From Acidobacteriota bacterium (GTDB taxonomy: Bacteria > Acidobacteriota > Terriglobia > UBA7540): 64,000 nt of DNA. The stretch covers positions 186,001 through 250,000 of the forward strand of contig JAKCCV010000001.1 in NCBI GenBank assembly GCA_021838785.1, in the 5' to 3' direction. This document shows, in pieces, positions 1,108-41,907 of this stretch (positions are counted from its first letter, which is position 1; the number at the start of each line of letters is the position of its first letter). The notes under the pieces were generated by a model. The model ran no database searches and was not told where the DNA came from. It saw only the letters and a program-made list of their open reading frames with translations. A program made the position numbers and the translations under genes.

Positions 1108-1108
1108 C

Positions 1109-2020: not shown

Positions 2021-2109
2021 CGTTTCCTGCTCTCTTTAACGCGGTCGCGGCGGCTTTGGCCGCGCCGCGCTGATCGGCGCGCGGCTCGCGTCACGCCGTC
2101 TTGGTCGGC

Positions 2110-2785: not shown

Positions 2786-2887
2786 GGTCAAGGTCCTCAT
2801 GCGTCGGATTTCACTTCTATGCCTTGCAGTCTTCGGCTCCCCGTTTTCCTCGAATGTCGCGCGAGCGCCGCTGGCGCAGCCTCCTCG

Positions 2888-3661: not shown

Positions 3662-3752
3662 GCATCCTCCAGCGATTGATTCATTCCTTCATGGCGTCAC
3701 GGGTTCCCTGCCTCGGCCACCCGACGACCCGATGAATCAATCGAACCCTCCC

Positions 3753-4304: not shown

Positions 4305-4352
4305 CTTTCACCCGCGCCGCGCGCGGCTTCGCGCCCCGCCGCGCCGCCGCGC

Positions 4353-4838: not shown

Positions 4839-4922
4839 AATCCGATCCTCCTTCCATGAAGCCTCGAAGGTCGAAAGGTCGCGCGCCCCTGGGCCACGCG
4901 CCCTTCGACCCTCCGCCGCTGT

Positions 4923-15599: not shown

Positions 15600-15951
15600 C
15601 GTCCCCTCCGCTTCCCACGGCACCAAGGCGCCAGCTTCCCCGCCCGAACCGGCGAATCGCCGCGCCCTTAACTTCATTCCCGACCGCCGCGCCACGCCGG
15701 GCCGAGCGATTGCAGCGGGCCATCCAACTGCCAGCGAAAGAACGGTCGCCGCGCCTAAGCCCTGCCAGCCTTTCCCGCGTCCGCCACCCGTTTCTCCGCT
15801 CCGCCGCTCCGGGCCCCACGCACACGTGAGCCGTCACCCGCTCGTTCGCGGCCGCGGCGAACAACTTGCCCCGCCCAACAGCCGCCGCGCCCGACCGCCG
15901 CGCTTCCCCTCACCTCTCAACGACCAGGCAAAGTGGCCTGACCGTGCGGCT

Positions 15952-16047
15952 CTCCAACCCACGCCTGCGCGAGCCGTCATCTGCCGGCCCCACCAGCGCC
16001 CTTCACCGTCGCCTCAACTGCCCCGCTCGCTTCCCTCAACTCACATA
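15952..16047. repeat. 97-bp direct repeat, copy 1
   Basis: The sequence from CTCCAACCC to CTCAACTCACATA recurs at 16206-16302 with only a few substitutions and a one-base length difference. The two copies face the same way, 254 bp apart, with a MITE-like element between them. The repeat probably duplicated within this intergenic region, or came from two insertions of a short repeat element. Confidence 0.85.
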
Positions 16048-16049
16048 AG

Positions 16050-16181
16050 CTAGTGTCCCGAGTCGTAAGAAGGATGAATAATTCCGGGCCGTCCGGCCTC
16101 CGGCAAGTCCTTTGCGATCTTTGCGCCTTGGCGTGAAACAGGCTTTTAGTTGTTCATCGAACCTCTGACTCAGGACACTAG
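16050..16181. mobile_element. MITE-like element with 15-bp terminal inverted repeats
   Basis: CTAGTGTCCCGAGTC at 16050-16064 is matched in inverted orientation by GACTCAGGACACTAG at 16167-16181, with one mismatch. The 132-bp interior has no ORF and includes CTTTGCGATCTTTGCGCCTT, a phrase of a kind I recall from dispersed non-autonomous repeats in several bacteria. Inverted ends, small size and lack of coding capacity make it MITE-like. It needs a transposase encoded elsewhere; none is in this window. Confidence 0.65.
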
Positions 16182-16205
16182 GCAACGTGGCTTGCCCTCG
16201 CTGCC

Positions 16206-16302
16206 CTCCAACCCGCGCCTGCGCGAGCCGTCATCTGCCGGCCCCGCCAGCGCCCTTCGGCCGTCGCCTCAACTGCCCCGCTCGCTTCCCTCAACTCACA
16301 TA
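16206..16302. repeat. 97-bp direct repeat, copy 2
   Basis: This second copy of the repeat at 15952-16047 runs from CTCCAACCC to CTCAACTCACATA. Both copies are followed within three bases by GCTAG, so the repeat unit may extend to that sequence. The MITE-like element lies immediately downstream of copy 1 and ends 24 bases before this copy. Confidence 0.85.
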
Positions 16303-16323
16303 GCTAGGGTAGCAGGCCAAAAT

Positions 16324-16346
16324 GGGACGATTGGGACGTTTGGGAC
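16324..16346. repeat. Three GGGAC motifs at 9-bp spacing
   Basis: GGGAC occurs at 16324, 16333 and 16342, each 9 bases after the last, within an A/T-rich stretch upstream of dtd. Such short-period repeats can be protein-binding sites, but 9 bp is not one helical turn. It may instead be a relic of a dispersed repeat. Confidence 0.4.
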
Positions 16347-16444
16347 AGTTTTTGGTGTGATTTTGTAAGGTGCTGATAATAAATGACTTATATTACTTAT
16401 GAGGCCCTGCTGGGGTCAAATTTCGTGAGATTTTGTTTCTTTCG

Positions 16445-16459
16445 GTTACATCGTGTAAC
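16445..16459. promoter_or_regulatory. 15-bp palindrome upstream of dtd, possible operator
   Basis: GTTACA-TCG-TGTAAC is a perfect inverted repeat with a 3-base centre, located 63 bases before the dtd start in an A/T-rich region. The form fits a dimeric regulator's site. Its distance from dtd would allow control of dtd or of an unseen promoter. There is no direct evidence for the regulator. Confidence 0.4.
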
Positions 16460-16521
16460 TTTTACATTGCCTTCGCATTATTCCTGTTTTTACCCGCCGA
16501 TAGCCCTTAAAATACTCTCCC

Positions 16522-16971
16522 ATGCGCGCCGTCATTCAAAGAGTCCTTCACGCTCGCGTTCGCGTCGGCCAACGCGTGGTCAGCGAAATTGGCCCCGGCT
16601 TGCTCATTTATCTCGCCATCGGTCGCAACGACACTTGCCGCGCCGCAGAAACCCTCGCCGCTAAAATCGCCAGCCTCCGAATCTTCAACGACGAGCACGG
16701 CAAAATGAATCGCTCTCTCATCGAATCCGATGGCGCTGCTTTAGTGGTGTCAGAATTCACCCTCTACGGCGATTGCCGCAAAGGTCGCAGACCGAATTAC
16801 ATGTTGGCCGCGCCTCACGCTCAAGCGCGCGAAATTTACGAATTTTTCGCTCGCGCCCTCGCATCCTGCGGCCTCAACGTTTCAACAGGAGAGTTCCACT
16901 CCATGATGGAAGTTGAATCGGTGAATGATGGTCCGGTGACGTTGCTTCTCGATTCCGATCGGCTCTTTTGA
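16522..16971 (+). CDS. dtd: D-aminoacyl-tRNA deacylase
   Basis: The 149-residue product has the standard Dtd length and start (MRAVIQRVLHARVRVGQRVV). It hydrolyses D-amino acids from mischarged tRNA in the cytoplasm. The two signature regions are present: VSEFTLYGDCRKGRRPNY (canonical SQFTLYGD, here with Glu instead of Gln) and VESVNDGPVTLLLDS, which carries the Gly-cisPro motif. The usual FGAxM is here FHSMM. These substitutions near the active site are unusual but do not disrupt the frame. It is a monocistronic host gene bordering the prophage. Confidence 0.92.
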   Translation: MRAVIQRVLHARVRVGQRVVSEIGPGLLIYLAIGRNDTCRAAETLAAKIASLRIFNDEHGKMNRSLIESDGAALVVSEFTLYGDCRKGRRPNYMLAAPHAQAREIYEFFARALASCGLNVSTGEFHSMMEVESVNDGPVTLLLDSDRLF

Positions 16972-17030
16972 CCTTCGCAACGCCGCTACAGGGTCTGTTG
17001 AACACCAGAATGACGGCCCAGGACTCGATT

Positions 17031-18578
17031 TTAAATGCCTGCTCCGCACTCGCCCCCATCGAATCTGGCGTGCCGAAATAACACCCGAACCTCTTCGCGC
17101 CAGTTCTCATTGATCCCCACTCGAATCACCTCTATGCTCGGATCAAAATACCGCAAAACGCTTTCGAGCGTTGAATGGAACCGAAACGCCGGCGCAACCA
17201 GATATAGCCGTGGCGCTGCCGTTTGCAACGCAATTCCAGGAAAATAGCCATACTTTTGCAAGGTGCCGAGCTTTGCCAAATGGGCCACGCGCATCCAATA
17301 GTCAAGCGCCTGAAACGGCAAATTAATTCCCTCCTCCAACTTCAGCTCCACCACGGCCAATCGCCCGTGGCGGCTAACGCTCAGGATGTCAATCACGCCG
17401 CGGTCATAACCCGTGAAAGAAGGCACCTGCGAATAGACAAATTGCGGAGAAAGTTCCGGATCAACCTTGGTGATGTCGTCAACCAGGATACTCTCGAGCC
17501 AACGCTCGCCCTGAAGCCGGTAAAATTCGTCCTCGTGGTTTGTATTCCGAGCCGTCCGCCGATCAAGACTCGCTCGAATAAAGGCAAGTAGCTTCGCGCG
17601 GTCTCGCGGATGGTACTCGCGAACATGCCCTTCCAAACCATAAAGAAGACGGGGTGAAAGGTCGCCCTCCACCCGAGCGATTTCAAGGCCAGCCACGCGA
17701 ATAGACAACGCGTTGCCGTTAGATTCGGGGACAAGGCAGATGCGGTCGAATAAATCCTCTAAAATCTCCCTCAACCATCCGTGATGCCGATTCAGCAAAA
17801 GCACGCCCTTCCGCCGGCCGACTAACCTCACCTCGAGTTCGGTGCAATTGTCAATGTTCACCTGACGCGGATTCGCCTCGCCAGGCCTCCACTCAAAAAG
17901 TTCCAACTTCGCTGCTCGGAGCCACCTAGCCCGCAACCGGTTTCGCTCAACTGCCTCTTTCGGCATAAACAGCCTCAGCCCGGGAACAATTACGGATTCG
18001 CCGTGATTTCTCACCCAATCGAGCCAGATCAATCCAAAAGCCAGCATGCTGTCCGGCGCAGCCGACGCCTCGCCTTCGTCCAATCCCATAACGGCCCACG
18101 CCGTTTGCCCTCGGCGGAGCAACCCGCGCGCGTACCACGTCGAAAATGAAAACTCACGGTCTGAACGGTGACTCACCCGCTCCAGCTTCCATCCAGGGTA
18201 ATGTCGTGCCAGCATCGCAACGAGTTCCCGAGAGAATTCGCCGCGGCTCCTCGTTCGACGACGGTCGGCTGGAGCAGGTGCCTGCTCGCAAAATTCTAAG
18301 GTGGTCGTTCGGCCAGTTCGCGACGATTGGCTAAAAACACCAATGCGCGCAGCATCCCGATAGGCAAGTTCCTCAATTCGCCGGCAAACACTCCGCGAGG
18401 CATTCCACGCCTCAAAAATCAGCTTCCCAAATTGAATGGAAATCCGCCACTCGACCGCAGAAAGGTCAAATAGTTCTTCTTCATCTTCCACGACGACAGG
18501 ATGGGCAAGCGAGCGGATAAAGCCTTCCAATTCACGCCCAAGCTCTGCAAGCCCTTTTCGATCCTTGGCCGTCCTCAT
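17031..18578 (-). CDS. Predicted PD-(D/E)XK-type nuclease domain protein
   Basis: The 515-residue protein has no signal peptide or membrane segment. Its C-terminal third carries a PD-(D/E)XK-like core: DRGVIDILSVSRHG (Asp), then LAVVELKLEEGINLPFQ (E-x-K), followed by ALDYWMRVAHLA, which reads like the conserved helix after the core. The N-terminal two thirds are charged, mixed alpha/beta and unrecognised. Genes of this kind occur as stand-alone proteins of unknown function; a DNA-processing or defence role is possible. Its start codon overlaps, on the opposite strand, the first in-frame ATG of the truncated array gene (shared CATG at 18576-18579). Confidence 0.6.
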   Translation of the reverse strand: MRTAKDRKGLAELGRELEGFIRSLAHPVVVEDEEELFDLSAVEWRISIQFGKLIFEAWNASRSVCRRIEELAYRDAARIGVFSQSSRTGRTTTLEFCEQAPAPADRRRTRSRGEFSRELVAMLARHYPGWKLERVSHRSDREFSFSTWYARGLLRRGQTAWAVMGLDEGEASAAPDSMLAFGLIWLDWVRNHGESVIVPGLRLFMPKEAVERNRLRARWLRAAKLELFEWRPGEANPRQVNIDNCTELEVRLVGRRKGVLLLNRHHGWLREILEDLFDRICLVPESNGNALSIRVAGLEIARVEGDLSPRLLYGLEGHVREYHPRDRAKLLAFIRASLDRRTARNTNHEDEFYRLQGERWLESILVDDITKVDPELSPQFVYSQVPSFTGYDRGVIDILSVSRHGRLAVVELKLEEGINLPFQALDYWMRVAHLAKLGTLQKYGYFPGIALQTAAPRLYLVAPAFRFHSTLESVLRYFDPSIEVIRVGINENWREEVRVLFRHARFDGGECGAGI

Positions 18579-20232
18579 GACAGGCCATTATACCGAACCT
18601 CGACCAACGGCATTATCCGCGCATCAACCTCTTCCCCCACGTCGCCCCCGTTCCTTCACGGGCCACGCGGGCGATCTGATCATCGCCACCGGCAGCGTGG
18701 ACAACACGGGCACGTACGTCTTTGAGGTTGAGCCGGAGGGCGTCAGCCCCACCGACTCCAAGCAAGTCGCCTACTGGACCACGGCCAACGGCTTTGACAC
18801 GATGTATTCGCTCTGGAACCCGACCGCCCAGGCCGAAGACCTGACGGTGACGTTTTATTATGGCGACGGTTCGGGCAGCTACGTCTTGCCCGTGCATCTG
18901 GCCGCGAACGGTTCTACAATGATTGACGTGATGATGCTGATCGAAAGCGGCCAGCCGGACGCGAACGGCCACATGTTTCCGATGACGGAAACCGCAGGCA
19001 GCGCGATCATTCGCAATACGGTAGCTGGAAACGTGAAGACAGTTTCTGGAACGAGCCTGCCGGCTCCAATGACGCTGGTGGCGGCAGGCGGAACGTTCAA
19101 CGTTGAGACGGCCACCTGCGGCGTGACCTGCATTACCTGCTCCGGCTACTCCAACCCGGCAGTCACGCCCAACCCTGTCTTGTGCCCGGTCGGTGACAGC
19201 ATGCAACTCACCTTCGAAGCGACGGATTCCAACGGCGATGTCGTGTACCCCTCGGCTACCTGGTCAAGCACCGACACATCGGTGATGACGGTGAACTCAA
19301 ACGGATTAGCCACGGCCATCATGCCGGGAGCGTGCTCCATCATAGCGACGTTCAGCACGACCGTCGAAATCAGCACGGGACAGTATTGCAGCGGTACGGA
19401 CCCGGTCTGCCCCACGGGCCAACCCAGCGCCGGCTCCAATGCCACGGTCGGCAATGTCGTGATCACCTCCGTTGACCTGCCCTCGGACCAGGTGAGTGTC
19501 ACGCTGAGCACCGGCTCAGCGACCGCCAGTGGGACTCTGACGGTAACTTGGAACGGGCCGAGCGGCAACGCCGACATCGCCGATCAGACGGAAGGCCCCG
19601 GCGGCTACACCTTCAATCCCAGCCTCGGCGGGCTGGTGACGGGCCAGTATAGCGGGGTCTCGGCCACATGGAGGGTTGACGACGTAAACGACAGCACCAG
19701 CTACAGCGACAGCTTTAATGTGCTGGGAACCTATTTGAACACACAGTACAATACGCCCGCCGAATCGCAGTGCACAGGCAGCTCCGCCACGGCCTACCTG
19801 ACCACCGGGCCGACCGCGTGCCCCTGGTCAACGGTTAGCCTGATAAGCGCGTTCATAGGCCAAGCCTGGGAGAACGGAAGCGGGGCGACCAACAACTACG
19901 GGTTAATTCAGGAATACCTGGCCGGATGCAGCGCCCCACCCGGAGGGAACATGAACTACTTCCGAGAGGTAAGCTTGATTCAGCCAGCCTGCGCTGGGGG
20001 CTCCCTGAGCAACACGACGGTCGCCATCAACGCATCGAACGCGAGCCTTCAGTGCGGGGACCAAGTGCTGATCGTCGGGCTGGGGTCTGGCCTCGGGACG
20101 GTCAAGGAGGTGACCGATCATGGGGGAGGCCTCTCACTGACGCAGCTAGATAATTACAACACCAGTGGGGCGTGCTCCACGACGGCATTGCCCAGCTTCG
20201 GAAACCTGCAGACGATCAGAATCAACCGATAG
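18577..20232 (+). pseudogene. Array unit A: 5'-truncated BIG2-type secreted protein with C-terminus A
   Basis: The ORF is open for 551 codons from ATG 18577, but protein-like sequence begins only near 18655 (GHAGDLIIATGSVDNTGTYV). No signal peptide or ribosome site precedes it, so the N-terminal part of the original gene seems lost at the junction with the nuclease gene. Domains in order are a beta-sandwich segment (MYSLWNPTAQAEDLTVTFYY), the conserved block (GTFNVETATCGVTCITCSGY) with paired CxxC-type cysteines, a BIG2-like Ig domain (ATWSSTDTSVMTVNSNGLAT), another beta domain, and a C-terminal domain with about six cysteines ending FGNLQTIRINR. I recognise the general family from acidobacterial secreted proteins. 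Expression from here would need an unseen start. Confidence 0.6.
18892..19296 (+). repeat. Conserved array block, copy A
   Basis: This 405-bp stretch (GTGCATCTG to GTGAAC) recurs almost unchanged at 24431-24829. Its inner 245 bp (18994-19238) recur at 22593-22837. Differences are mostly third-position changes plus a 6-bp deletion in copy C (loss of GCCGCG). Such identity among otherwise different genes indicates recent duplication or continuing gene conversion. Confidence 0.9.
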
Positions 20233-20305
20233 GGGTCCGTCACGAGTGGCCCCGTAAGAGGATGGGATGCTCACGAGGCGGCGACGAGACCGAGGGGGGG
20301 CATTC

Positions 20306-21286
20306 ATGGTGTCCCTATGCAGGGCCGCGCTCGTTGGAGCGGCAGTATTGCTGGGCCCAGCCTCATGGAGCGTGCGGGCACGCTTGTCCGCCGCGTCGCC
20401 CCGATGGGCCGTCTCCCTCGAACGCGCCAGGCCGTGCCCGGTCTGCCCGGCTGGCGTGTCATTTGAGTTCAGCGTAACGGATAGGCTCACGGGCACGGTG
20501 AGCCGGTTTACCCTCGCCAACGCGATGTCAGGAGTGACCGAGATAAGGGTCCCTCGCGGCGGCAACACTGCCGCTCTTGTGGAAAGGTCTCAGGAGGGAT
20601 GGGCGTTTGTAACCGTCGTCGCGCTGCCCTCAGGCAGGGTCAGGGACGCCTTCCTCTGCGTATGGCCGAGTTTTTCGCCGGGCGACCGCTTCATGGCCTT
20701 CCGCAAGTGGTTTCCGGCGCACCTGCCTCCCGAGGTGCACTTCAGTGACGAATATCTGATCTACGATCTGATGAAGGGACCGTTGGAAAACCGGGCGCCG
20801 GGGCCGGGGTGCCCCTGCGGGCCGGGCTTCGTACTCTACCCACCAGGCGCCTTGAACGGGACCGGGCCGAACATTGTCCGCGGTCGAGGTTCCGGGCGGG
20901 CCCATCGCATCGCCTCCACAAGCTTCTTCTGGCTGGGGGCCGACACGGTGGCGTTTGTTGACCGGTATAGAGGTGTCAACCGCTTAATTGTCGCCGATCT
21001 CAGGCGAGGAGTTCGAGACCCGCGCGTAAACGCCGTCCCCCTGGCAGCGTCTGGGCTGGTTGACTTCACCACGTGCGCGGAGAAAGTTGCGCCGTCAGAC
21101 CTCGCGAGGTGGCAGAGGGACCCGGCCCTGCTCATCTTCGCGAAATCCATAAGGGAACTTCGGGGACAGCCTCCGGTGGTCCAGGTCGACCTGTTCCCGA
21201 ACCCTTGCCTCGCGAGTTCGGTCGTGGATGTCCGCGCACCGTGGCTTGTTCGCTCCAGGCGGCCTTCCCACGCGCGGTCCCCATAG
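20306..21286 (+). CDS. Array partner 1: secreted protein of unknown function
   Basis: The ATG at 20306 (MVSLCRAALVGAAVLLGPAS) has GAGGGGGGG upstream and begins with a signal peptide. The 326-residue product starts 73 bp after the stop of array unit A. It reads as a beta-rich protein with VVALPSGRVRDAFLCVWPSF, HLPPEVHFSDEYLIYDLM and FFWLGADTVAFVDRYRGV. It is clearly paralogous to partner 2, with the same order of motifs (LPPxxxxSDEYLxYDL; FxWLGAxxVAFxDxxxG; LxVADLxxGxRxP). The pattern could be that of a propeller-like scaffold, but this is not certain. The function is unknown; an accessory or antidote for the protein encoded just upstream is one hypothesis. Confidence 0.7.
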   Translation: MVSLCRAALVGAAVLLGPASWSVRARLSAASPRWAVSLERARPCPVCPAGVSFEFSVTDRLTGTVSRFTLANAMSGVTEIRVPRGGNTAALVERSQEGWAFVTVVALPSGRVRDAFLCVWPSFSPGDRFMAFRKWFPAHLPPEVHFSDEYLIYDLMKGPLENRAPGPGCPCGPGFVLYPPGALNGTGPNIVRGRGSGRAHRIASTSFFWLGADTVAFVDRYRGVNRLIVADLRRGVRDPRVNAVPLAASGLVDFTTCAEKVAPSDLARWQRDPALLIFAKSIRELRGQPPVVQVDLFPNPCLASSVVDVRAPWLVRSRRPSHARSP

Positions 21287-21342
21287 AGCTGAGCATCCCG
21301 GCCGTCGCATTGGGTCGTTAGAAGCTTCCGCAAATTGGCTTG

Positions 21343-21498
21343 AATAGCCTGTGCGGATGAGGTGGCAAAGACCGTGACCGACCGATCCGGCGACTGCACG
21401 GGGCAGCGCATGTGGACGACTACAATACGAGTAACGCGTGCGAGCCCGGGAGCATGGGCAGCCTTGGCAATTTTCAGACGATTCGGATCAACCGGTAG
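21343..21498 (+). pseudogene. Remnant of a second C-terminus A
   Basis: The last 28 codons read DDYNTSNACEPGSMG, then SLGNFQTIRINR and a stop. This parallels the end of array unit A (LDNYNTSGACSTTALPSFGNLQTIRINR split as LDNYNTSGACSTT and FGNLQTIRINR). Upstream similarity continues in another frame (AKTVTDRSGDCTGQRM against VKEVTDHGGG), so a frameshift near 21410 and a 5' truncation have inactivated it. It directly precedes partner 2, as unit A precedes partner 1. Confidence 0.7.
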
Positions 21499-21534
21499 CG
21501 TGCCGGCGAGAGCACGTCCCGGCACGGGTAGCCT

Positions 21535-22584
21535 ATGAACCTGCGTCCCATGATCCTCGGCGTGTCCTTACTAGCGAGTTCGGCGCTTCTGCAGCCGTGC
21601 CGAGTCACAGCTCTTCCTGAGGGCGGAGCCGCTATGGGCCCGGGGTGCTCGGCCAGCTGGAATCGCGCGTACATATCGCCGTTCGGTACAAAATACCAAC
21701 GGCACGTGTCGGCTCGCTCCAAGTGGTGGGACGTGACACTGCATCGTTGGAGTGCTTGCCCGGGAGAGGCGGTGAGCCACGAGTGCTTCCACTTCAGGGC
21801 CGTTGGGAGATCCACGGGGGAGCAGGTTCGGTTCGAGATCAAAAACGAGACCGCAATGGTTGATGCCATCACGCTCGTGGGGCGCTCCCGTGCGGCCATA
21901 CTGGGGCGCGTCTCCGCAAACGTCGCCGTTGTCAGCGTGGTGGACCTCGCCGCTGGGAGAGTGGCCGATAGGTTTGTTTGCCTCTCTCCCCAGATTTCAC
22001 CGAGAGGGAGGTTCGTGGCCTTCGTTAAATGGTCCTCGCGCGAACTCCCCCCACACCTTTCGGTTAGTGACGAATATTTGGCCTACGACCTGAGCCGTAC
22101 GCCAGGCTACAATCGCACCCCCGCTGGCCGGGGCCCGTCGGATATCTACGACGCGGGGTGGCCCATGTACCCGCCCGGGGCCGCAAACGCGCCCTTGGAC
22201 AACGTCGTCCAGCGGACGGCCGTCGCGAGCGCGCACGTGATGTCGTCGGATGGATTTTGGTGGCTTGGCGCGGCCAGGGTAGCTTTCGCGGACACCTTCG
22301 AGGGGACCGTGTCTCTCGTGGTGGCAGACCTCGCCAGCGGGATCCGACACCCGGCGGTCTCCGTCACCTCGCTCATGGGGCTGGGCGTTCTCAATCCGGC
22401 CAAGTGCAGTAACTTATCGCCCGCCGCCTTCTTCGTCAAAGACATTTCCCGGATTAAGGGCAATCCAAACCGGGTCTGCCTGCTATTCAGGACATGGGAG
22501 CCAGCATGTCTCGCCCGGAGATCGGCCGTGGTTGAGCTTTCGAAAGCCACAGGGCCCGCGGCGACGGGTACACTTCCCCGTTGA
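21535..22584 (+). CDS. Array partner 2: secreted protein paralogous to partner 1
   Basis: The 349-residue product starts MNLRPMILGVSLLASSALLQ, a good signal peptide. The motifs shared with partner 1 are LPPHLSVSDEYLAYDLSRT, FWWLGAARVAFADTFEGTV and LVVADLASGIRHPAVSV, with overall similarity at the level of distant duplicates. It follows the remnant of a unit A-type C-terminus by 36 bp, so the C-terminus/partner pairing is conserved in two copies. The C-terminal 20 codons run right up to the junction with array unit B and may be read-through rather than native sequence. No family was recognised. Confidence 0.7.
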   Translation: MNLRPMILGVSLLASSALLQPCRVTALPEGGAAMGPGCSASWNRAYISPFGTKYQRHVSARSKWWDVTLHRWSACPGEAVSHECFHFRAVGRSTGEQVRFEIKNETAMVDAITLVGRSRAAILGRVSANVAVVSVVDLAAGRVADRFVCLSPQISPRGRFVAFVKWSSRELPPHLSVSDEYLAYDLSRTPGYNRTPAGRGPSDIYDAGWPMYPPGAANAPLDNVVQRTAVASAHVMSSDGFWWLGAARVAFADTFEGTVSLVVADLASGIRHPAVSVTSLMGLGVLNPAKCSNLSPAAFFVKDISRIKGNPNRVCLLFRTWEPACLARRSAVVELSKATGPAATGTLPR

Positions 22585-23405
22585 CGCGGGCTGCAGGCAG
22601 CGCGATCATTCGGAATACGGTGGCTGGAAACGTAAAGACAGTTTCTGGAACGAGTCTGCCGGCTCCAATGACGCTGGTGGCGGCGGGCGGAACGTTCAAT
22701 GTTGAGACGGCCACCTGCGGCGTGACCTGCATTACCTGCTCCGGCTACTCCAACCCGGCAGTCACGCCCAACCCTGTCCTGTGCCCGGTCGGTGACAGCA
22801 TGCAACTCACCTTCGAAGCGACGGATTCCAACGGCGACGTAGTCAGCCTTCCGGCCAACTGGGCCAGCTCGGATACGACGGTGATGACCGTGGGCGAGAC
22901 CACGGGCATAGTGACGGGCTTGGAGGCAGGCACGCCGACCATAACCGCGCAGTCCTCCACCCCGATCATCGTCAACACCGGGACGATCTGCTCCTCTGTC
23001 GACCCCAGTTGCCAGTACGCCCAGCCGAGCGCCGGCGCCAACGCCGAGACGATGGACTTCTCCATCTGGCTCGACAACCGCAATGTAGACTGCACCGGGC
23101 AGACGGAGAGTTACCAGAAGTTCCAAGCGACCCCCTCTTCAACGAACCTGAACATTTCGGCCTCCGGGTCGTCGTGTAAGGTGACGGGTACGACGGGCAA
23201 CATAGATCTGGACGCAAAGAACCCCACCAGCTTTAGCGTTGTTACCGGCATCGGGGAGTGCCAGGTTAATTTCTACGCCGGCCCGGCGCAGTCGAACGGG
23301 TACGCAGGGACGATCACGGTACAGATAACCGCGGCCTTCGCCGAAGGGCCAGGGACAGTCACCCATAGCTTTACCGGGAACATTGCATGTGGGAGCAGCC
23401 CATGA
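22581..23405 (+). pseudogene. Array unit B: 5'-truncated secreted protein with C-terminus B
   Basis: The frame opens with a TTG that overlaps the stop of partner 2. Protein similarity to unit A starts abruptly at 22593 (AGSAIIRNTVAGNVKT) and lasts to 22837, so the N-terminus is missing. After the shared block it diverges: a BIG2-like domain of different sequence (NWASSDTTVMTVGETTGIVT), CSSVDPSCQYAQPSAGA, then a C-terminal beta domain with three more cysteines ending GNIACGSSP. Its stop overlaps the start of partner 3 (ATGA), so if read it would be translationally coupled to that gene. Start codon and secretion signal are absent, hence the pseudogene/cassette call. Confidence 0.6.
22593..22837 (+). 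repeat. Conserved array block, copy B (inner part)
   Basis: These 245 bp align base for base in length with 18994-19238. The copy begins at GCAGGCAGCGCGATCATT and ends at AACGGCGA, so it lacks about 100 bp at the 5' side and about 60 bp at the 3' side compared with copies A and C. Its left edge lies 8 bp after the stop of partner 2. Confidence 0.9.
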
Positions 23406-24406
23406 CCGTCCAGCGGCCGCGCGGCCCTCTGCCGATTTTAGGGCACGGCCTGGTCTCGGCTGTCCTGGCGTGGTCCTCGTGTGTCGGGCTGGCGCACGCT
23501 GCCGTTCCGAGCTGGGTCGCAACGCCCCTCAAGGTTGAGCCGGGGCCCGGCATCGACAGCGGATGGAGGGTCGAGCGGGCGAGCGTGACCGAGAACTTCC
23601 GCCAGATCGAGGTCGAGGTAACGGTTGAGAGCGTCGCGCCCGCTCCGATTGAGACGGCCACGTTCTACGGCGAATTGTACGACGGCTCCGGCCGCCTCTG
23701 CTTCACGGCGCTGTTCAGCCTGACGACCAACACCCAAAGGCTTAAGGGGCCGATCCTCCCGGGCCAGGCGAGGACGTTGTATTCGAGCAGCGTCTTCCTC
23801 GCCAGCGCGACCCAGCCGCGGCTCATGCGGTTTTATTTAACTCACCAGTACCCGCCACCGGGGTCGGTCCTGGGGAGGGAGGTCGCGCCGCGTGTGTGGT
23901 CTCCCGCCGCTTTGAGCCCCATCTCACTTTATCCCTCGGGACAGTGGGACCGACTGTGCCTTGGAGGGACTGGGGTCTCAAGCTCCGCGCCCCTGGTGGA
24001 CGTGGCCCTGGGTCTGGCTGATGTCGGGCCGACCGGCAAGCTGGAGCACTTCCAAGTCCTCGACGCCCTTGGTACCTGGCCGTTCGCTGCATGGACTGAG
24101 GTGTTCATGTCGCGCGTGCGCTTCAGGCCCGCACGCCTGGGAGGCAGGCCAACCGCCGCAAAGACGCTGGTCCTCTTCCGGGTCGTCCTACGAGAATGGA
24201 ATAAGGGGGATGCACCCTACTTGCCGAGGTCAAGCGCGTGGGTCAAGTCCTACACGCAGTCGTTCCCCGGCGGCCAAGTTCCCGTGATAGACGTTATCCA
24301 GCTTAACCGCCCTCCGCAAACAGCGCCCCCTGGAGCTTCGAACGGCTCGGCGCCGTGTTTCGAAGACGACTTCACCCCGTACTGGTCGCAGGGCATAAGC
24401 AGGTAG
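23402..24406 (+). CDS. Array partner 3: secreted FxLYD/TonB-C-like protein
   Basis: The start at ATG 23402 overlaps the stop of unit B. The 334-residue product has an N-terminal export signal (ILGHGLVSAVLAWSSCVGLA). A middle beta domain follows with IEVEVTVESVAPAPIETATF and TLYSSSVFLASATQPRLMRF, resembling the FxLYD type. A C-terminal region with AAWTEVFMSRVRFRPARLGG recalls the TonB C-terminal fold (rFxPAxxxGxP). It is unlike partners 1 and 2, so partner identity changes with the C-terminus. Domain assignments are by eye and tentative. Confidence 0.65.
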   Translation: MTVQRPRGPLPILGHGLVSAVLAWSSCVGLAHAAVPSWVATPLKVEPGPGIDSGWRVERASVTENFRQIEVEVTVESVAPAPIETATFYGELYDGSGRLCFTALFSLTTNTQRLKGPILPGQARTLYSSSVFLASATQPRLMRFYLTHQYPPPGSVLGREVAPRVWSPAALSPISLYPSGQWDRLCLGGTGVSSSAPLVDVALGLADVGPTGKLEHFQVLDALGTWPFAAWTEVFMSRVRFRPARLGGRPTAAKTLVLFRVVLREWNKGDAPYLPRSSAWVKSYTQSFPGGQVPVIDVIQLNRPPQTAPPGASNGSAPCFEDDFTPYWSQGISR

Positions 24407-24430
24407 GCCGGGCCGGAGGACGTTCTGCCG

Positions 24431-24829
24431 GTGCATCTGAATGGTTCTACAATGATTGACGTGATGATGCTGATCGAAAGCGGCCAGCCGGACGCGAACG
24501 GCCACACGTTCCCGATGACCGAGACCGCAGGCAGCGCAATCATTCGGAATACGGTGGCCGGAAACGTAAAGACAGCTTCGGGAACGAGTCTGCCGGCTCC
24601 AATGACGCTGGTGGCGGCGGGCGGAACGTTCAATGTTGAGACGGCCACCTGCGGCGTGACCTGCATTACCTGCTCCGGCTACTCCAACCCGGCGGTCACG
24701 CCCAACCCTGACCTGTGCCCGGTCGGTGACAGCATGCAACTCACCTTCGAAGCGACGGATTCCAACGGCGATGTCGTGTACCCCTCGGCCACCTGGTCAA
24801 GCACCGACACGTTGGTAATGACGGTGAAC
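24431..24829 (+). repeat. Conserved array block, copy C
   Basis: These 399 bp match 18892-19296 apart from a 6-bp deletion near the 5' end and scattered changes. Similarity begins about 12-20 bp after the stop of partner 3. At 24831 the sequence changes abruptly to the segment that is also found, from the same base, at 27446. Confidence 0.9.
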
Positions 24830-24830
24830 G

Positions 24831-24976
24831 CGGCGGGGGATTTGGTCGTGGACGCGCATATGGCGAACGAAGGCGATGGTTGGAGTGGCTCCGGCGCGAA
24901 CCCGTGGCATCTCGACGCCACGACCGACTCGGTTTTGTTCCTGACGAATGAAAGCAATCAGCCGGCCCGCGTCGGG
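24831..24976 (+). repeat. Second array repeat, copy in unit C
   Basis: The 146 bp from CGGCGGGGGATTTGG to CCCGCGTCGGG recur at 27446-27591 with a single visible mismatch (GCGAACG against GCCAACG). Here the sequence encodes the segment AGDLVVDAHMANEGDG of unit C and continues into its next domain. Confidence 0.9.
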
Positions 24977-26402
24977 CTTTCCATCACCGCCGAGAATGTG
25001 CATTACTATTTGACCTCGCTCGAACTTGCGCCCTACGAAACGCGGGCCATCAGCATTCGCCAACTCCGCGACGCGCAGGTGGCTGACTTCAAGGGCAACA
25101 AGATTCCTCCCAACGCCACGGACGGCTCGGTCAATTGGGTTAGAATAGACGATGTTCCCATGAGCGGCCGCTTAATGGTCATCCGCCGGGGCCAAGGCAC
25201 CGTATCGAGCTACGATTGTTGCACATGCGTCTGTCCACTGAGCTTTACGACGGTCACGGTGACCCCGTCGCCGAGCTTTGACACGCTGGCTGGCGGGACG
25301 ACGGCTTGTACCTGCACGGCCGACTACTATAGCTGCAACAGCACCCCCTACTATTACGATGAGACCGTGGGTGCCAGCTGGAGCTCCAGCGACACCAGCG
25401 TGGCGACCATGGACGGCAGCGTCAATGGCCAAGTCGACGCGGTGGCCGCGGGCAGCGCCACCATCCAGGCCGCTTACAGCGGCGACCAGTGGTACTACTA
25501 CTCGCCCCAAGCCCGCTGCGTCTCCAACTTGATCCACGCCACCGGCAGCAACACCGCCAACGTCTGCGGGCTATCCATTTCCAGCCCCGCCGCCAACGCC
25601 GTGTACAGCCTGGGCGGGGCGAACTACAACCAGGCGACCGTGCCCCTGGAGGCGGATTCCTCCTGCTCCGGCGCAGCGAGCTGGACGCTCAACTTTACCT
25701 ATACGCCCAAGACCGGCGGTCCGTTCACCGCATCGCCGACCACTTCCACGACGATCAACCAAAGCACGAACTACACCACGAACGTCGGTCAGGGTGGACA
25801 GGTGAACGCTCAGGCGTCGGCCACGCTAGACGGGCAGGCGTTCAACGCCTCGGTCACGTTCTACGTGCTCGGGCCCAGCGGCGGCATTCCGAACTCGACC
25901 ATCAGCGCGCGGCTCTACGGCCTCTACTCGGGAACCACGTCGGGCCTGTTGACGGGCATCGCCATGCACGAGAGCCACTACGCGCAGTTCTACAACTATT
26001 CCGAAATGGGCTTTACCGGCCTGTGGCCGCAAGGGAACCGGGTGGGCACGCTCGACCTCTTCGTGGGGTTAATGCAGATTCCAAACAATATGCCCGACGG
26101 CTTCGACTGGCTGACCAACACTCAGGGCGGCGCAAATACCTTTCAGGACAAGCTGAGTGCCGTAGCCAGTTGGGTGGCGGGCTTGCAGAAGCAATATCCG
26201 AGCCTGCCCAATCTGAGCGGTACGCAGCAGGAGGACAACGCGCTGGTGCTGTACGGGGGCTACGACGCGTTGGATTATCCGGCCAAGTATTACATCTGGC
26301 AGCCGAATAGCAGCGACAACGGATGGGTTGAAGACACTAGCAGCCCGGCTTACGCTTATGTTTATGCGCAGGCCACTACGAACCAACAAGCTGGGGTTCG
26401 CA

Positions 26403-27389
26403 ATGAAATTCAGGCGCAGTAGGCCGGAACTAGTCTGGTTCACCGCAGCGGCCCTCCTCGCGTGCGCGGCGCGGGCGGCCTCAGCGGCACCGTATCGGTT
26501 CTACGCCAGCCCGCCGTTCGCTTGGCCCGTAACGGCGCGGGGCGCGTGGGCCGCGAACCAGAGGGTGACCAAGGCGGCGCTGAACGCCTTTCTTCCGCAG
26601 CCGATAATCCGTGACTTTCGCTTCGCGCAGCTTGGCCCCGGCGAGATTTGCCTTATCGAAGCCTGGCAGGGTCGCGGGGCGCACCAGATGGAGGTGGTGT
26701 GTCCGGCGAGGGGAGGCGGCTACTGGGACACCTCGCTGCCGTACTACGCGCCCGTCCCGCTGGCTTGGTGCGTCACCGAGCTCAAGGGCGACGGGAACTC
26801 TGAGGTTATCTCGTCAGAGGGGGACGGCTCACCATACAGCCCACCGCTGTACTGGTACACGATCTACAGCTTCAAGAAGGGTGTGCCGCTGGACGTCAGC
26901 AGCGCGTTCCCGGGCTTCTATCGGGCGGTCCTGCTGGCGCAAGTCTCCGCAGCGGACTACCTGCTCAAGCCCCCGTTCGCCGCCGAGCCCCTGTCCCCTG
27001 CGGCGCGCTACCTCAAAATGGGCCTGCAGTTTATGGTGCTGAAGTACAAGCGTCGAGTCCTGGGCCAGAAAAAGGCGGGCCTGCGCCACGGACTCGCGTG
27101 GATCAAATCCCCGTACACGGATGTGCAGGGTCTAGGGTTTAGCACGCTGGCTGACATCAGCGACCCGCGCTCCATAGCGGCGCTTCGACGGCTGGGGGCA
27201 AGGACGCAAAACCAGGGGACGTGCGTGGCCGTCGTCAACGCGCTGGCGCGCCTCGAGGGGCGTGCGCCCCGCGGCATCGTCGGCGATCCAGCGGACGTGA
27301 AGAAGATCCTAAAATGCGACTCAATGAAGCCATCCGCGCCGTGCCTGCTCCAACAGGGATGCGTCGTCCCGGCCCAAAGACCCTATTGA
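26403..27389 (+). CDS. Array partner 4: secreted protein of unknown function
   Basis: The ATG at 26403 lies 20 bases inside the 3' end of unit C, in another frame. The 328-residue product starts MKFRRSRPELVWFTAAALLA, a signal peptide cleaved near ASA. The mature part is mixed, with FAQLGPGEICLIEAWQGRGA, ELKGDGNSEVISSEGDGSPY (an Asp-rich, possibly calcium-binding loop) and aromatic-rich strands. Helices from about 205 onward include LKMGLQFMVLKYKRRVLGQK. It is not similar to partners 1-3. No family was recognised. Confidence 0.65.
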   Translation: MKFRRSRPELVWFTAAALLACAARAASAAPYRFYASPPFAWPVTARGAWAANQRVTKAALNAFLPQPIIRDFRFAQLGPGEICLIEAWQGRGAHQMEVVCPARGGGYWDTSLPYYAPVPLAWCVTELKGDGNSEVISSEGDGSPYSPPLYWYTIYSFKKGVPLDVSSAFPGFYRAVLLAQVSAADYLLKPPFAAEPLSPAARYLKMGLQFMVLKYKRRVLGQKKAGLRHGLAWIKSPYTDVQGLGFSTLADISDPRSIAALRRLGARTQNQGTCVAVVNALARLEGRAPRGIVGDPADVKKILKCDSMKPSAPCLLQQGCVVPAQRPY

Positions 27390-27445
27390 TACAGCGGGCC
27401 GCCGCGGACAATGATTGCCCAAGTCCCGCCACGGCAGGATGAACT

Positions 27446-27591
27446 CGGCGGGGGATTTGGTCGTGGACGCGCATATGGCCAACGAAGGCGATGGTTGGAG
27501 TGGCTCCGGCGCGAACCCGTGGCATCTCGACGCCACGACCGACTCGGTTTTGTTCCTGACGAATGAAAGCAATCAGCCGGCCCGCGTCGGG
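27446..27591 (+). repeat. Second array repeat, orphan copy at array end
   Basis: This fragment starts 57 bp after partner 4 and repeats 24831-24976. It is in an open frame from 27441 to a stop near 27636, but the sequence after 27591 is unrelated to unit C. No partner gene follows. It marks the right edge of the array and is a gene relic. Confidence 0.85.
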
Positions 27592-27790
27592 GCCAGGGAG
27601 TTCCGTCAATTCTTCCCATCGCGGCATGGCATCTGAACAACCCCAATGACGCTGATGGTGCCTACCCGTAAACCGAGACGTCTCAGAGCGACGACGATAT
27701 TCACGATTGAGTCGCCCGGCGACCGATCACCGAACCACCCACGGCTCGAGGCCATTCTACCAGCTTACGGGAAACCCCTCGGGTCGGTTC

Positions 27791-28801
27791 TCAGTCGAGG
27801 GCGACCGGCCCGGCTTGACGGTAGGATTGTTCGGCCGCCAGGGCCACGGCCAGCGCCTGACGACCATCCTTGCCATTGACCCGCACCGGCGCATCAGATC
27901 GAATGGAGCGCACAAAGTCGCGCAGCTCGGCCAAGTAGGCGTCGGCAAAGCGGACGAGCCAGTGCTCCACCACATCGTGCGCAATGCCCGTTGAGGTCAA
28001 AACCTGAAGAGGAGTCTGCTGGAGATAGCCGACCTGCACAGCGCCTCGCGTCCCCAAAATCTCCGTGCGAATGTCGTAACCGTAGCTCGATTTACGAAAC
28101 GCCTCAATGTTGCCGATCCCGCCGCGCGCGAACCGGAGATTCACCAAGGCGGCGTCCACATCGCCAAAGGGAGCCAGCTCTGGGCAGGCCAGTACCCCCG
28201 CGTACGCGTGCACCGCGGCCACTTCGTCGCTCATCATCCAGCGCGCCAAATCAAAGTCGTGAATGGCCGCATCGCTGAACAAGGTGCCGTTAATCCCGGC
28301 TTCAAAGAAGCTGACCGGCGGCGGCTGCCGGTCGCGCCCGACCGACTTGAATATCACCGGCTCGCCAATCTCCCCCGCTTCAATCCGCCGGAAAGCAGCG
28401 GCGTAGCCAGGGTCATAGCGCCGCATAAATCCAATTTGAAGCTGGACGCCGGCAGCGCCGACAGCCGCCAACGCCAGGTCGGACTGAGCGAGGCTGAGTG
28501 CCAGTGGCTTCTCGCAGAAGATGTGCTTGCCGGCCCGAGCCAGAGCCTCGATCTGCTCGGCATGAAACTTGGATGGAGTGGCAATGACGACGGCTTGAAT
28601 GTCCTTGCGATGGAGGATCTCGTCGAGGCGATCGGTAGCCTGCTCGACTTCAAGGTCCGCAGCAACTTCGAGGGAGCGGGAACGGCTGGAGTCACACACC
28701 GCGAGGAGCTGTGCTTCCGGCACGTGGCGGCGCAAATTCTCGGCGTGTCGCCGCCCAAGCATTCCAACACCCACCACGGCCACGCCCAACCTTGCCTGCA
28801 C
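27791..28801 (-). CDS. Gfo/Idh/MocA-family oxidoreductase, inositol-dehydrogenase-like
   Basis: The 336-residue product has an N-terminal Rossmann fold with GVAVVGVGMLGRRHAENL (GxGxxG). The family's EKP motif is present (IFCEKPLALSLAQSD, Lys near residue 97), and the C-terminal alpha/beta domain shows SDAAIHDFDLARWMM, with the conserved Asp/His-type active-site pair. Such enzymes oxidise cyclitols or sugars with NAD(P). The next gene downstream on the same strand is a GRP-family sugar transporter gene, 103 bp away in the reverse direction of transcription order. A myo-inositol-type substrate is possible, but no other iol genes are present. Confidence 0.85.
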   Translation of the reverse strand: MQARLGVAVVGVGMLGRRHAENLRRHVPEAQLLAVCDSSRSRSLEVAADLEVEQATDRLDEILHRKDIQAVVIATPSKFHAEQIEALARAGKHIFCEKPLALSLAQSDLALAAVGAAGVQLQIGFMRRYDPGYAAAFRRIEAGEIGEPVIFKSVGRDRQPPPVSFFEAGINGTLFSDAAIHDFDLARWMMSDEVAAVHAYAGVLACPELAPFGDVDAALVNLRFARGGIGNIEAFRKSSYGYDIRTEILGTRGAVQVGYLQQTPLQVLTSTGIAHDVVEHWLVRFADAYLAELRDFVRSIRSDAPVRVNGKDGRQALAVALAAEQSYRQAGPVALD

Positions 28802-28904
28802 GGTGCCTCCTGTCCGCTTAATTTCTAACCGCTTAGGTTGCGCTGGTATCTTAAAACGCTCGCCGCCCTTTATCCAAGAAATTTCTGCTGGGCCGAGCCT
28901 CCCA

Positions 28905-30188
28905 CTACGAAAACCTTGTGCGCTTCCACAAGAGCCAACCGCTGCCGACCAGGAACACCAGCATCAAAAGCACTAAACCAAGCATCCAGCCTTGCCGCAA
29001 GTGGAGCGCAGGAACCTGAGCGTTGGCCCCCAGCCACAAGAAAATCCCGCCGGCAGCCGCGACCACCACTGCATCCCACCCTCGGTGCGACGGCGCCGCG
29101 CGCGCCACCACGTCTTCACCCTGCTGGGCGGCTTGGGCATCTTCCAAACTAATTCCGTAGCGATGGCACTCGCGCGCGATGGCCTGTTGGGTGGAAACTT
29201 GTTCTCCCTCGGGGGCCGCGGCGCTGCTGATGGCAGCCGCACCCAGAATCATCGCCACCGAACCGGCGACGACCATCATCAGCGTTAACCTGCCGTGTCC
29301 GGCGAATTCGCTGAAGACCAACGCACCCCAGGCAAGTCCCCAAAGTTGGTTGGTATTGGAAAGGGGCACGCCGCGTCCGATCCCGATATATTTGGCGGCA
29401 TAGTTCTGGAAGAGATCGCCGACCACCCAGCAGAATCCCCCCAGGAAGAGCCAAAATAGAGCGGGTCGAGCCTCCCGCAGTTGGGCAACCACCGAGGCGG
29501 CACCGCCGCTGAAGGCGATCGCCAACGCCGACATCGTGATCACCTCGCCCACGGTGAAAACGGTGACGAACGAGATGGGGTTCATGCCGCTCAGATAGGC
29601 TTTACGGTAAGGAATATACATCGTCCCGAACATCAGTCCAGCGCCCACGGCGGCCGCGATTCCAGAAAGGGCGCGATGGGGCGAGGTGGAGGCTTCATGG
29701 GAAGAGGCGTAGGCCAGGACGACGGCTCCTCCCAGAATAGCAATCGCGCCACCAACGACCTTCACAGCCGTCTCGGTTCCGGCCCCGCGCAACTCCCGGA
29801 AGAAAAACCATCCCCAGAAAACCCCTACCAGGCTGTTGACATTCCAGAGCGGAAACGCGATTGAAAGGCCAATGTCGCGCACCGCGAACACGGTCAGCGT
29901 GTTGCCCACCGCCCAGAGTGCACCAGCCAATACAGCCCACACCATCAGGTAGGATTTCTGGCGAAGATCGGCGAAGACGTAACCCGTCCCTTTCAAAACG
30001 GTCGGCAGCGTCCACCGAGCCACGAACACGCCGGCCACCATGGCGAGGGAAACGAGGAAGGGCGAAAGGCCGACGGTCACCAGCTTGGTGGGCGCTTCCG
30101 CGCCTGCCAACCAAGCCCCCGCCGCCAGTCCGCAGACCACCCCCAGCTCGTGCAAGGATTGAGCCGTATTGACTGGACGTTGTTCCAC
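28905..30188 (-). CDS. GRP-family sugar transporter (RhaT/GlcU-like)
   Basis: The 427-residue protein has about ten membrane segments in two DMT-like halves. They include LVSLAMVAGVFVARW, SYLMVWAVLAGALWAVG, the short motif FPLWNVNSLVGVFWGWFFF and, in the second half, FWLFLGGFCWVVGDLFQNYA followed by PLSNTNQLWGLAWGALVFSE. These repeats are typical of glucose/ribose porters of the drug/metabolite transporter superfamily. A soluble loop (about 315-365) with charged residues precedes a last pair of membrane helices, an extension beyond the usual fold. It lies upstream of the oxidoreductase gene on the same strand. Confidence 0.8.
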   Translation of the reverse strand: MEQRPVNTAQSLHELGVVCGLAAGAWLAGAEAPTKLVTVGLSPFLVSLAMVAGVFVARWTLPTVLKGTGYVFADLRQKSYLMVWAVLAGALWAVGNTLTVFAVRDIGLSIAFPLWNVNSLVGVFWGWFFFRELRGAGTETAVKVVGGAIAILGGAVVLAYASSHEASTSPHRALSGIAAAVGAGLMFGTMYIPYRKAYLSGMNPISFVTVFTVGEVITMSALAIAFSGGAASVVAQLREARPALFWLFLGGFCWVVGDLFQNYAAKYIGIGRGVPLSNTNQLWGLAWGALVFSEFAGHGRLTLMMVVAGSVAMILGAAAISSAAAPEGEQVSTQQAIARECHRYGISLEDAQAAQQGEDVVARAAPSHRGWDAVVVAAAGGIFLWLGANAQVPALHLRQGWMLGLVLLMLVFLVGSGWLLWKRTRFS

Positions 30189-33215: not shown

Positions 33216-34652
<1,437 letters not shown>

Positions 34653-34753
34653 CCCCCTTCAACGTTGAATTATCAGGCGTGGAGCGCCTGGAAACTATCT
34701 TCACAGGGTGTCGCGCGCCGCGTTCGGGCCGCCGCGCAGCCGGGTCCCTCGGT

Positions 34754-36034
34754 TCAGAACACAAAGCCGGATTCAATCACACCCCGCAGTTGGCTCTTGT
34801 TAAGCCCCAACGGACCGAAAGCGTCGCCTGGGGTAATGTTCTGTGCCTCCACGAAGCCGACCTCTACGCGGAGGAAGAAGCGGTGCTTTTGATAGGTCGG
34901 CGTCAGGGTCAGCGACCACGCTGAACTCCCCGGCCCGTAGATCAAATTCACGGCGTTTTCGGCGACATTTCCCGAACTGGCGATGTATTCTCCGCGGCCG
35001 CACATCGAGAAACCGTTCTTGAAATTGTAGGTCAGCAGCAACGCGCCCCCGGTGGTCGAAGCCCCGTGCGCGATGCCGATCTGGGCGTTGGTGGGAACGT
35101 CCGTATATTGAAAGTACGGATTGATGACCCATGCCTTGTGCGTGTACGTGTAAATGACGTTGTAGATTTGAGAGTTGTTCTGCACAGGAGTCGCGAATGT
35201 GGTGAATTTTGTTTGCCCGAGGTTGCCCGCTCCCACGAAGGTGATGGAGTTGGCGGGATTGGGCGCGTAACTCAGCGATCCCGAGATCCACGTGTAACGG
35301 TTAGAATAAAATCCGTCGTTCCACGAAATAGAGCCGCTGAAGTGACCCCAGGAATCGTTGAGTTGCACGCCACGATTGACCGCGTTCTCCTGGTTCCATA
35401 AAATGCCGCGGGAGATGTTGACGTTCTCGAAGTCGAAGGTGGTCTCGGCTCCGATGAGCGTCGGCAGCGCGCCGATTTCCATCGAGAAATTGCTTTTGGC
35501 GCTCGGTTGAATCTTCAGGAACCCCTGGGGAAAGGGACCATAAAGCTGCTTGACCCAATCCGAGGTGGATAACGTGGGCAAGCCCAGGTCAGGAATGTTG
35601 TACGCTCCGGCTTGAATGAAGTACTGCCACCAGCCATTGTTCTTTTCGATAAAAACCTGGCCGTTGTCCAAATCCCATCGGCTGGCTTGATCTCCAGGAA
35701 CCCAGTTGTTCTGGACGACGCCAATACCGCTCACCACGCCTCCCACGTTCACCTTGCCGAGCGGTCCGGCGTTAAACATCAGCAGGGAGGGCAGCGTCAG
35801 CGGCCCGCCCATCGAGGGATAGGGCATGGGTTGCGGGCTCGGCGCGGCCGGCGCTGGGGTGGTGGTGATGGGCGCCGCCGAAGAGACACCCGCCGCCGGA
35901 TTCGCAGTTGCTGGTGTTGATGTCGGACTCGCCGTGGGTGTTGTGGACGGGGCCGAATCCTGTCCATAGGCGCAAAGCGTCGCCGCCAAAAGCATTAGGA
36001 GAACCACTAGCCAAATTCGTTGTTGAAGCTTCAT
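34754..36034 (-). CDS. Outer-membrane beta-barrel porin (BBP2-like)
   Basis: I start at ATG 36034 (MKLQQRIWLVVLLMLLAATL), a clear signal peptide; 25 further in-frame codons upstream look non-coding. After a Pro/Thr/Ala-rich linker (about 25-70), residues from about 75 to the end (FVF) form alternating amphipathic strands with many aromatics. Examples are NNGWWQYFIQAGAYNIPDLG, AWVINPYFQYTDVP and QKHRFFLRVEVGFVEAQNIT, with a C-terminal Phe as needed for barrel assembly. This fits the BBP2/OmpL-like porin family. A good sigma70-type promoter lies about 85 bases upstream of the ATG. Confidence 0.8.
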   Translation of the reverse strand: MKLQQRIWLVVLLMLLAATLCAYGQDSAPSTTPTASPTSTPATANPAAGVSSAAPITTTPAPAAPSPQPMPYPSMGGPLTLPSLLMFNAGPLGKVNVGGVVSGIGVVQNNWVPGDQASRWDLDNGQVFIEKNNGWWQYFIQAGAYNIPDLGLPTLSTSDWVKQLYGPFPQGFLKIQPSAKSNFSMEIGALPTLIGAETTFDFENVNISRGILWNQENAVNRGVQLNDSWGHFSGSISWNDGFYSNRYTWISGSLSYAPNPANSITFVGAGNLGQTKFTTFATPVQNNSQIYNVIYTYTHKAWVINPYFQYTDVPTNAQIGIAHGASTTGGALLLTYNFKNGFSMCGRGEYIASSGNVAENAVNLIYGPGSSAWSLTLTPTYQKHRFFLRVEVGFVEAQNITPGDAFGPLGLNKSQLRGVIESGFVF

Positions 36035-36119
36035 CGGATTGGTTGTCGCTTTCTCCCCCCGCCGACCCATGCAAAAAGAACTCACCAGCGTCTTCTCCAG
36101 ATCCGTCACTGGCTACTTC

Positions 36120-36148
36120 ACATTAAAGACAGGAACCTCAGCGGTCAA
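36120..36148 (-). promoter_or_regulatory. Sigma70-type promoter for porin gene
   Basis: On the minus strand TTGACC (36148-36143) and TAATGT (36125-36120) are separated by exactly 17 bases, close to the consensus. Transcription would start near 36112, leaving an untranslated leader of about 78 bases before the porin ATG at 36034. Confidence 0.5.
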
Positions 36149-36287
36149 ATGAATAGATTTTCTGGCAGGTATAAAGAATGGTTTGGCAACATTGAGGGAT
36201 CAACGGCGCTCGTCCGTTGCATCCGTTGTTCGGCGCCAGGCGGGAGCGGTCGTGGGTTAGCGGATGGCGTGGCCAACGATAAGGTGA

Positions 36288-38955: not shown

Positions 38956-39153
38956 GTCAGCTCTACGGGAGCGTTGCTCGCGCGGCACACGATGGTCCAT
39001 GCACGCGTCGCGTAAACCATCAATTCAATGAGACGACACTCGAGCTGTGCACGGCGCGCGTCGAAATTACCCGAAGGTTGGAGCCTTTGAGCATCCATCG
39101 CCCCTCCCATCGTTTGATGTTGGATGAAGTCGGCCAACATACGGCTTCCCAGC

Positions 39154-40832: not shown

Positions 40833-40840
40833 ACGGGTCC

Positions 40841-41803: not shown

Positions 41804-41847
41804 CGTTGACGAATTTCCCAAACCTCATCACGGGAAAACGTTGGGTT

Positions 41848-41874
41848 CGCTTCCTACGCTTCCTACGCTTCCTA
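41848..41874. repeat. Three tandem 9-bp repeats
   Basis: CGCTTCCTA is repeated three times without interruption, 45-70 bases upstream of the ABC ATPase start and just past the end of the TMTC-like gene at 41908. It is followed by an A/T-rich stretch (ATATAAATCAA), so it could lie in a promoter region, but no function is evident. Confidence 0.6.
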
Positions 41875-41907
41875 ATATAAATCAAGTTGCCGCGAAACGG
41901 GGGCGCT

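Follow-up and report, generated by a model that had tools for sequence, protein, structure and literature searches.

A headless array of C-terminal cassettes and exported partners points to a polymorphic-toxin-like system in Acidobacteriota

The window analyzed here, a 64,000-nucleotide stretch of an Acidobacteriota genome, carries an array (positions 18652-27591) of 5′-truncated pieces of a secreted scaffold, each with a different C-terminus (CT) followed by an exported partner (Table 1). We consider it probable that this array is part of a polymorphic-toxin-like system of Acidobacteriota, in which the CTs would be directed at the periplasm or cell wall and the partners would be exported immunity proteins, and that it is here a headless orphan array. 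The observations behind this reading are the anatomy of the array, its synteny, a deletion junction at its left end, the co-inheritance of CTs with partners, the export-type N-termini of the partners and constraint between species.

Units A, B and C have a block in common, with unit A 92.5% identical to unit C (18881-19296 versus 24420-24829) and 91.7% identical to unit B (18994-19293 versus 22593-22892), and units B and C alike over 329 bp at 89.7% identity. The initial annotation had described three open reading frames with a nearly identical block, and the common block is indeed present, although at an identity of about 90-93%. It also stated correctly that the C-termini diverge after the block, where we detected no DNA similarity among the three units, that no unit begins with a signal peptide, and that the partner genes abut the next block; the gaps as measured here are 8 bp from PA2 to unit B, 13 bp from PB to unit C and 47 bp from PC to the terminal fragment. 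Its claim of one secreted reading frame after each unit holds for PA1, PB and PC, but unit A has two partners behind it, the homologues PA1 and PA2 (36% identical), with a CT-A-type relic between them; this relic and second partner (21368-22584), together with the terminal block fragment, had been missed and are now added to the array. Unit C is a chimera that follows the unit-A scaffold until about 24825 and a second scaffold type thereafter. The three CT reading frames and the four partners are all open. Chance does not produce repeats that are 150-400 bp long and 90-99% identical, and the organization recurs in independent genomes, so we regard the repeats as genuine.

Table 1. Features of the array and its flanks; positions are those of the window.
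Feature	Position	Strand	Basis or remark
Left flank gene, 515 aa	17031-18578	-	Weak PADLOC match to PDC-S11; intact and syntenic in same-genus G024
Deletion junction, 6-bp microhomology TCCTTC, left flank to type-1 scaffold interior	18652-18657	.	Window, G024:C174 and G024:C162 aligned together
Unit A scaffold remnant, type-1 scaffold	18658-19170	+	94% aa identical to G024 gene
Big_2 domain of unit A	19159-19353	+	Pfam PF02368, E 2.1e-6
CT-A, RlpA/3D double-psi-barrel-like C-terminus	19714-20232	+	Weak profile matches
Partner PA1, 339 aa, exported by predicted N-terminus	20267-21286	+	G024 orthologue follows CT tail only
Relic, end part of CT-A-type domain, tail type beta	21368-21498	+	Alignment; 92% identical to L010:1050-1185
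Partner PA2, 349 aa, exported by predicted N-terminus	21535-22584	+	PA1 homologue, closer to the G024 partner after the beta tail
Unit B: block, Big_2 and CT-B (no fold identity)	22593-23405	+	Repeat comparison, Pfam
Partner PB, exported by predicted N-terminus, overlaps unit B end	23402-24406	+	G003:C231 has a homologue (28% aa) behind a different unit
Unit C first scaffold remnant, type-1 block	24420-24829	+	Repeat comparison
Unit C second scaffold remnant, of type 2; Cys motif in its last domain	24825-25230	+	Sequence comparison
CT-C, tentatively lysozyme/SLT-like, by motif only	25880-26422	+	Motif
Partner PC, exported by predicted N-terminus, overlaps unit C end	26403-27389	+	C-terminal half HEAT-like, low confidence
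Terminal type-2 block fragment	27437-27591	+	152 bp (27440-27591) 99% identical to unit C interior; same breakpoints in G024:C166
Right flank gene, by eye a Gfo/Idh-like oxidoreductase	27791-28801	-	Syntenic in G024

The same locus could be identified in a metagenome-assembled genome (MAG) of the same genus, YP1.bin18 (G024). Window positions 16205-18657 align at 93% to G024:C174, where the left flank is followed by a signal-peptide gene with a full scaffold and then by CT/partner cassettes; positions 27425-29000 align at 92% to G024:C166, where the right flank is preceded by a different CT, two tandem partners and a terminal block fragment with matching breakpoints. Since both flanks match while the cassettes differ, the two species have the same locus with different contents, in a comparison that covers the ends of a G024 array spread over several contigs. 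In a third species (G022) the left flank is followed by a head-gene stub alone, and no head gene was found at the syntenic site of G023. The type-2 head of G024 has a 10-nt frameshifting insertion and its type-1 head an in-frame TAG, from which the G024 array may be decaying too. Both heads with the type-1 scaffold have a single in-frame TAG with the frame open on either side (L011 at about 8367-8369, L012 at about 8211-8213). In L011 (G024:C162), positions 1-5721, the type-1 head adjoins genes on the opposite strand that by eye resemble those for a MobF-type relaxase, a TrwB-like coupling protein and a VirB11-like ATPase; judging by these neighbors, a conjugative element may house one of the arrays.

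The left flank of the window continues to 18657, and unit A matches the type-1 scaffold interior of G024:C162 from 18652, the overlap being TCCTTC. The alignment indicates that the head of the window array was lost through a deletion at this 6-bp microhomology, and the junction looks like an end-joining-type deletion that would have taken out the promoter and signal peptide along with the greater part of the scaffold. The window's own genome, 3.42 Mb in size and 98.45% complete, was searched with the block and unit C as queries; this returned the array only and found no full-length scaffold gene elsewhere, which gives no support in this genome to the early suggestion of a silent library serving such a gene.

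Several side observations concern the surroundings of the array. The left-flank gene directly abuts it, and the match of that gene to the PADLOC candidate defence model PDC-S11 is weak (2.7e-7). A direct repeat with 254-bp spacing lies upstream of dtd (15923-16047 and 16177-16302, with 82 nt at 88% and 42 nt at 100%), and a related repeat occurs at the same place in G024:C174. GC content drops from about 0.65 to 0.55-0.58 at 16001-18000 and 34001-54000, suggesting compositional islands. No Rfam RNA families were found in the window, and promoter and terminator scans gave results close to shuffled expectation.

Relatives elsewhere in the phylum have a conserved N-terminal scaffold with variable C-termini, and full-length head genes with a signal peptide are present in G037 (985 aa), G009 (885 aa), G033 (849 aa), G047 (894 aa) and others. 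Displaced CT cassettes lie downstream of the full-length gene in G024:C174, G033, G047 and G415; arrays of a similar kind occur in G003, G033, G035, G047 and G415, with the tandem cassettes of G047 and G415 lying outside the family. A scaffold profile matched 13 of 396 genomes from the phylum (the window's own counted), 13 of the 39 family genomes searched had relatives of unit C, and a plasmid collection yielded no scaffold relatives. Most type-2 heads have a Cys motif, [ST][NS][YF]xCx2CxCP, at the end of the scaffold, directly ahead of the Big_2/CT part. Searches with Pfam, NCBIfam and PADLOC recognized Big_2 only in the scaffold and units, with no match to a known trafficking domain (TpsA, Rhs, LXG, VgrG/PAAR, MafB-N), and we recognized no dedicated translocation gene beside the heads. 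The window's own genome encodes two secretins, which makes type II-like export conceivable.

Much as in the window, block copies flank CT/partner modules on both sides in L047, L048 and L051 and adjoin both partners in L087 (79-96% identity), and the two units of L086 have a common block at 98% identity. Four type-2 block copies of G024 (L043, L044, L045) carry the same GC-rich, frame-shifting 10-nt insertion, which neither of the window copies has, the syntenic terminal fragment being one of them. This common insertion indicates homogenization between block copies within a genome, and would reflect either concerted decay or frameshifting.

CTs and partners are inherited together. Among 34 cassettes from Acidobacteriota, 37 of 41 CT pairs that were similar by BLAST also had similar partners, compared with a maximum of 14 in 20,000 permutations, which make no correction for kinship among the cassettes. 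The CT-A family shows this pairing down to the tail types: PA1 stands behind tail alpha in both the window and G024, and tail beta is followed by PA2 in the window and by the relative of PA2 in G024. In G319, from another taxonomic family, a different scaffold carries a CT-C homologue, and the partner behind this CT still belongs to the PC family; upstream of that homologue, L104 (reverse strand, 1-2238) has a 746-aa NHL-repeat-like reading frame. All 34 partners have a signal-peptide-like hydrophobic N-terminus, as judged by a hydropathy criterion rather than a trained predictor, and in most of the cassettes the partner start is close to or overlaps the CT stop. Intact partners also stand behind CTs of which no more than a short tail is left (PA1 in L010, PA2 in the window), and partners occur in tandem in G024:C166, L047 and L087. 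The predicted model of partner PC (pLDDT 62) has a helical-repeat C-terminal half, and a Foldseek search of this model against the PDB returned nothing at E<=0.001.

Coding sequences of the array are constrained between the window and G024, with dN/dS values of 0.28 for PA1 (0.16-0.46), 0.15 for unit A and 0.27 for unit C, compared to 0.32 for a flanking gene; these values also cover the period in which the window array still had its head. PA1 in G024 is preceded by a CT tail only, so its constraint there is independent of an intact adjacent CT.

The CT activities that could be identified suggest a target in the wall or periplasm, a location that exported partners could reach. The G033 head has as its CT a Peptidase_M15_3 domain (Pfam PF08291, 7.9e-16, above the curated cut-off) that also matches a muramoyl-pentapeptide carboxypeptidase (PDB 1lbu, 3.7e-7). 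The CT-A family profile matched an RlpA-like structure (PDB 9ce9) at E 0.033, and the CT of L012, a CT-A homologue, matched Pfam 3D at 0.0077, below the cut-off; a search for Pfam 3D in relatives found none. HExxH motifs are present in CTs of G170 and G415 (L088, L097), with a weak Met-zincin match for one of them. CT-C has an ES that is invariant in five sequences and a GLM-type motif resembling SLT lysozymes, and comparison with 10 SLT sequences by hhalign gave a probability of 4%, yet a score above that of 60 shuffles. CT-C had no Pfam match, AlphaFold2 modeling from a five-row alignment gave a mean pLDDT of 39, and PDB sequence searches with CT-C and with the CT of L051, which resembles SleB by eye only, returned nothing credible. 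The searches run assigned no identity to CT-B, a beta-domain CT paired with STN-like partners showed no obvious enzyme, and most CTs and partners had no match to known toxin or immunity families in the libraries used.

In the mechanism that we propose, the head gene would produce an exported scaffold composed of a signal peptide, repeated domains, the Cys boundary motif, a Big_2-like part and an exchangeable CT whose likely site of action is the periplasm or the cell wall. The CTs would be toxic and delivered to other cells, and the exported partner after each CT would most likely be its cognate immunity protein. Crossovers between the scaffold blocks on either side of a block-CT-partner module would allow such modules to be gained, lost or swapped, and in this way may actively switch the head. 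Displaced CTs would become truncated while their partners are retained. With the head deleted in this genome, the CTs would no longer be exportable and the four partners still would be, such that the headless array may work as an immunity store. A more tentative extension, which we hold to be possible but somewhat doubtful, is that Acidobacteriota use a family of exported polymorphic toxins of their own against the periplasm or wall, with exported immunity and modules that recombine into the head, and that headless arrays are either immunity-only shields against kin or a start-less store that is re-armed when a head re-enters.

The cassettes could instead encode secreted enzymes that act on the wall or extracellular substrates of their own producer, for remodeling or nutrition, with the partners serving as helpers in folding, anchoring or control. 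The CTs with an identity are hydrolases suited to remodeling and helpers would likewise be co-inherited with CTs, but self-acting enzymes leave unexplained why intact partners are kept behind short CT tails, why partners occur in tandem and why CT diversity at one locus is so high, and we consider this reading unlikely.

Less likely still is that the array is plain debris of a recombination-prone, repetitive gene family and now has no function, as in the decayed expansion first offered as one option. That option is half right, in that the head is deleted, and in its favor are that no other head was found in the genome, that the units lack signal peptides and that the G022 locus is reduced further, to a stub; against it stand the open reading frames of all CTs and partners and dN/dS values well below 1 across the window and G024 branches together, including that of PA1, which in G024 has no intact CT upstream. 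The assembly of a repeat-rich genome could also have created the array as an artefact, another of the early suggestions, given that repeats of this length and identity could mislead an assembler. We reject this explanation as highly improbable: the window lies within a 382-kb contig, the relation of flanks to array, the cassette layout and the terminal fragment recur in the independently assembled G024, and similar arrays are found in other families.

The polymorphic-toxin-like reading, which extends the likeness to polymorphic toxins or orphan cassettes seen by the initial annotation, is strengthened by the signal-peptide heads of relatives, the co-traveling CT/partner pairs and the differing contents of the syntenic locus in another species. 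Wall-degrading effectors with exported partners are familiar from the Tae/Tai and Tge/Tgi pairs of T6SSs and the X-Tfe/X-Tfi pairs of the Xanthomonas T4SS, and the cassettes resemble these in joining a candidate wall-directed CT to an exported partner; those effectors are delivered by a T6SS or T4SS. In the MafB/MafI islands of Neisseria, a secreted full-length head (here found in relatives) is likewise followed by start-less CT pieces, each with a partner of its own, CTs that are near-identical go with near-identical partners, and a conserved motif marks the CT boundary (PMC4287609). Like the silent MafB cassettes, the CT cassettes described here have no export signal and keep their partner genes. 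Unlike in those islands, no MafB domain was recognized in the scaffold, the head is deleted in this genome, the partners have signal peptides and the identifiable CTs are wall- or periplasm-type hydrolases. Orphan immunity arrays at T6SS loci of V. cholerae similarly keep displaced effector 3′ ends with intact immunity genes behind them (PMC5361080), but no T6SS component was recognized in the genes described here, the units retain scaffold blocks, and heads and partners are predicted to be Sec-exported. The constant N-terminus, variable C-terminus, adjacent partner and standalone cassettes also match the polymorphic toxins of Zhang et al. (2012), including CdiA/Rhs orphan modules, whereas no CdiA, Rhs, LXG or pre-toxin domain was recognized here; in the sections of that survey drawn on here, Acidobacteria appear under other classes, with no mention of BIG2 or lytic transglycosylases (PMC3482391). 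We do not claim membership among polymorphic toxins, because toxicity and immunity are what we infer and no known trafficking domain was found.

The scaffold family has no name in any library used here, and in the open-access literature we found neither a description of the scaffold nor a paper devoted to an antagonism system of this kind in Acidobacteriota. Acidobacteriota are abundant soil bacteria, and an unnamed scaffold family with exchangeable, partly wall-directed domains and exported partners offers many toxin and immunity candidates. One locus within one genus presents a head with an array, a headless array and a head stub, leaving the growth and loss of orphan arrays open to direct test. 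Taken together, the data suggest that Acidobacteriota have a so far undescribed system that resembles a weapon with its antidote and has swappable parts.
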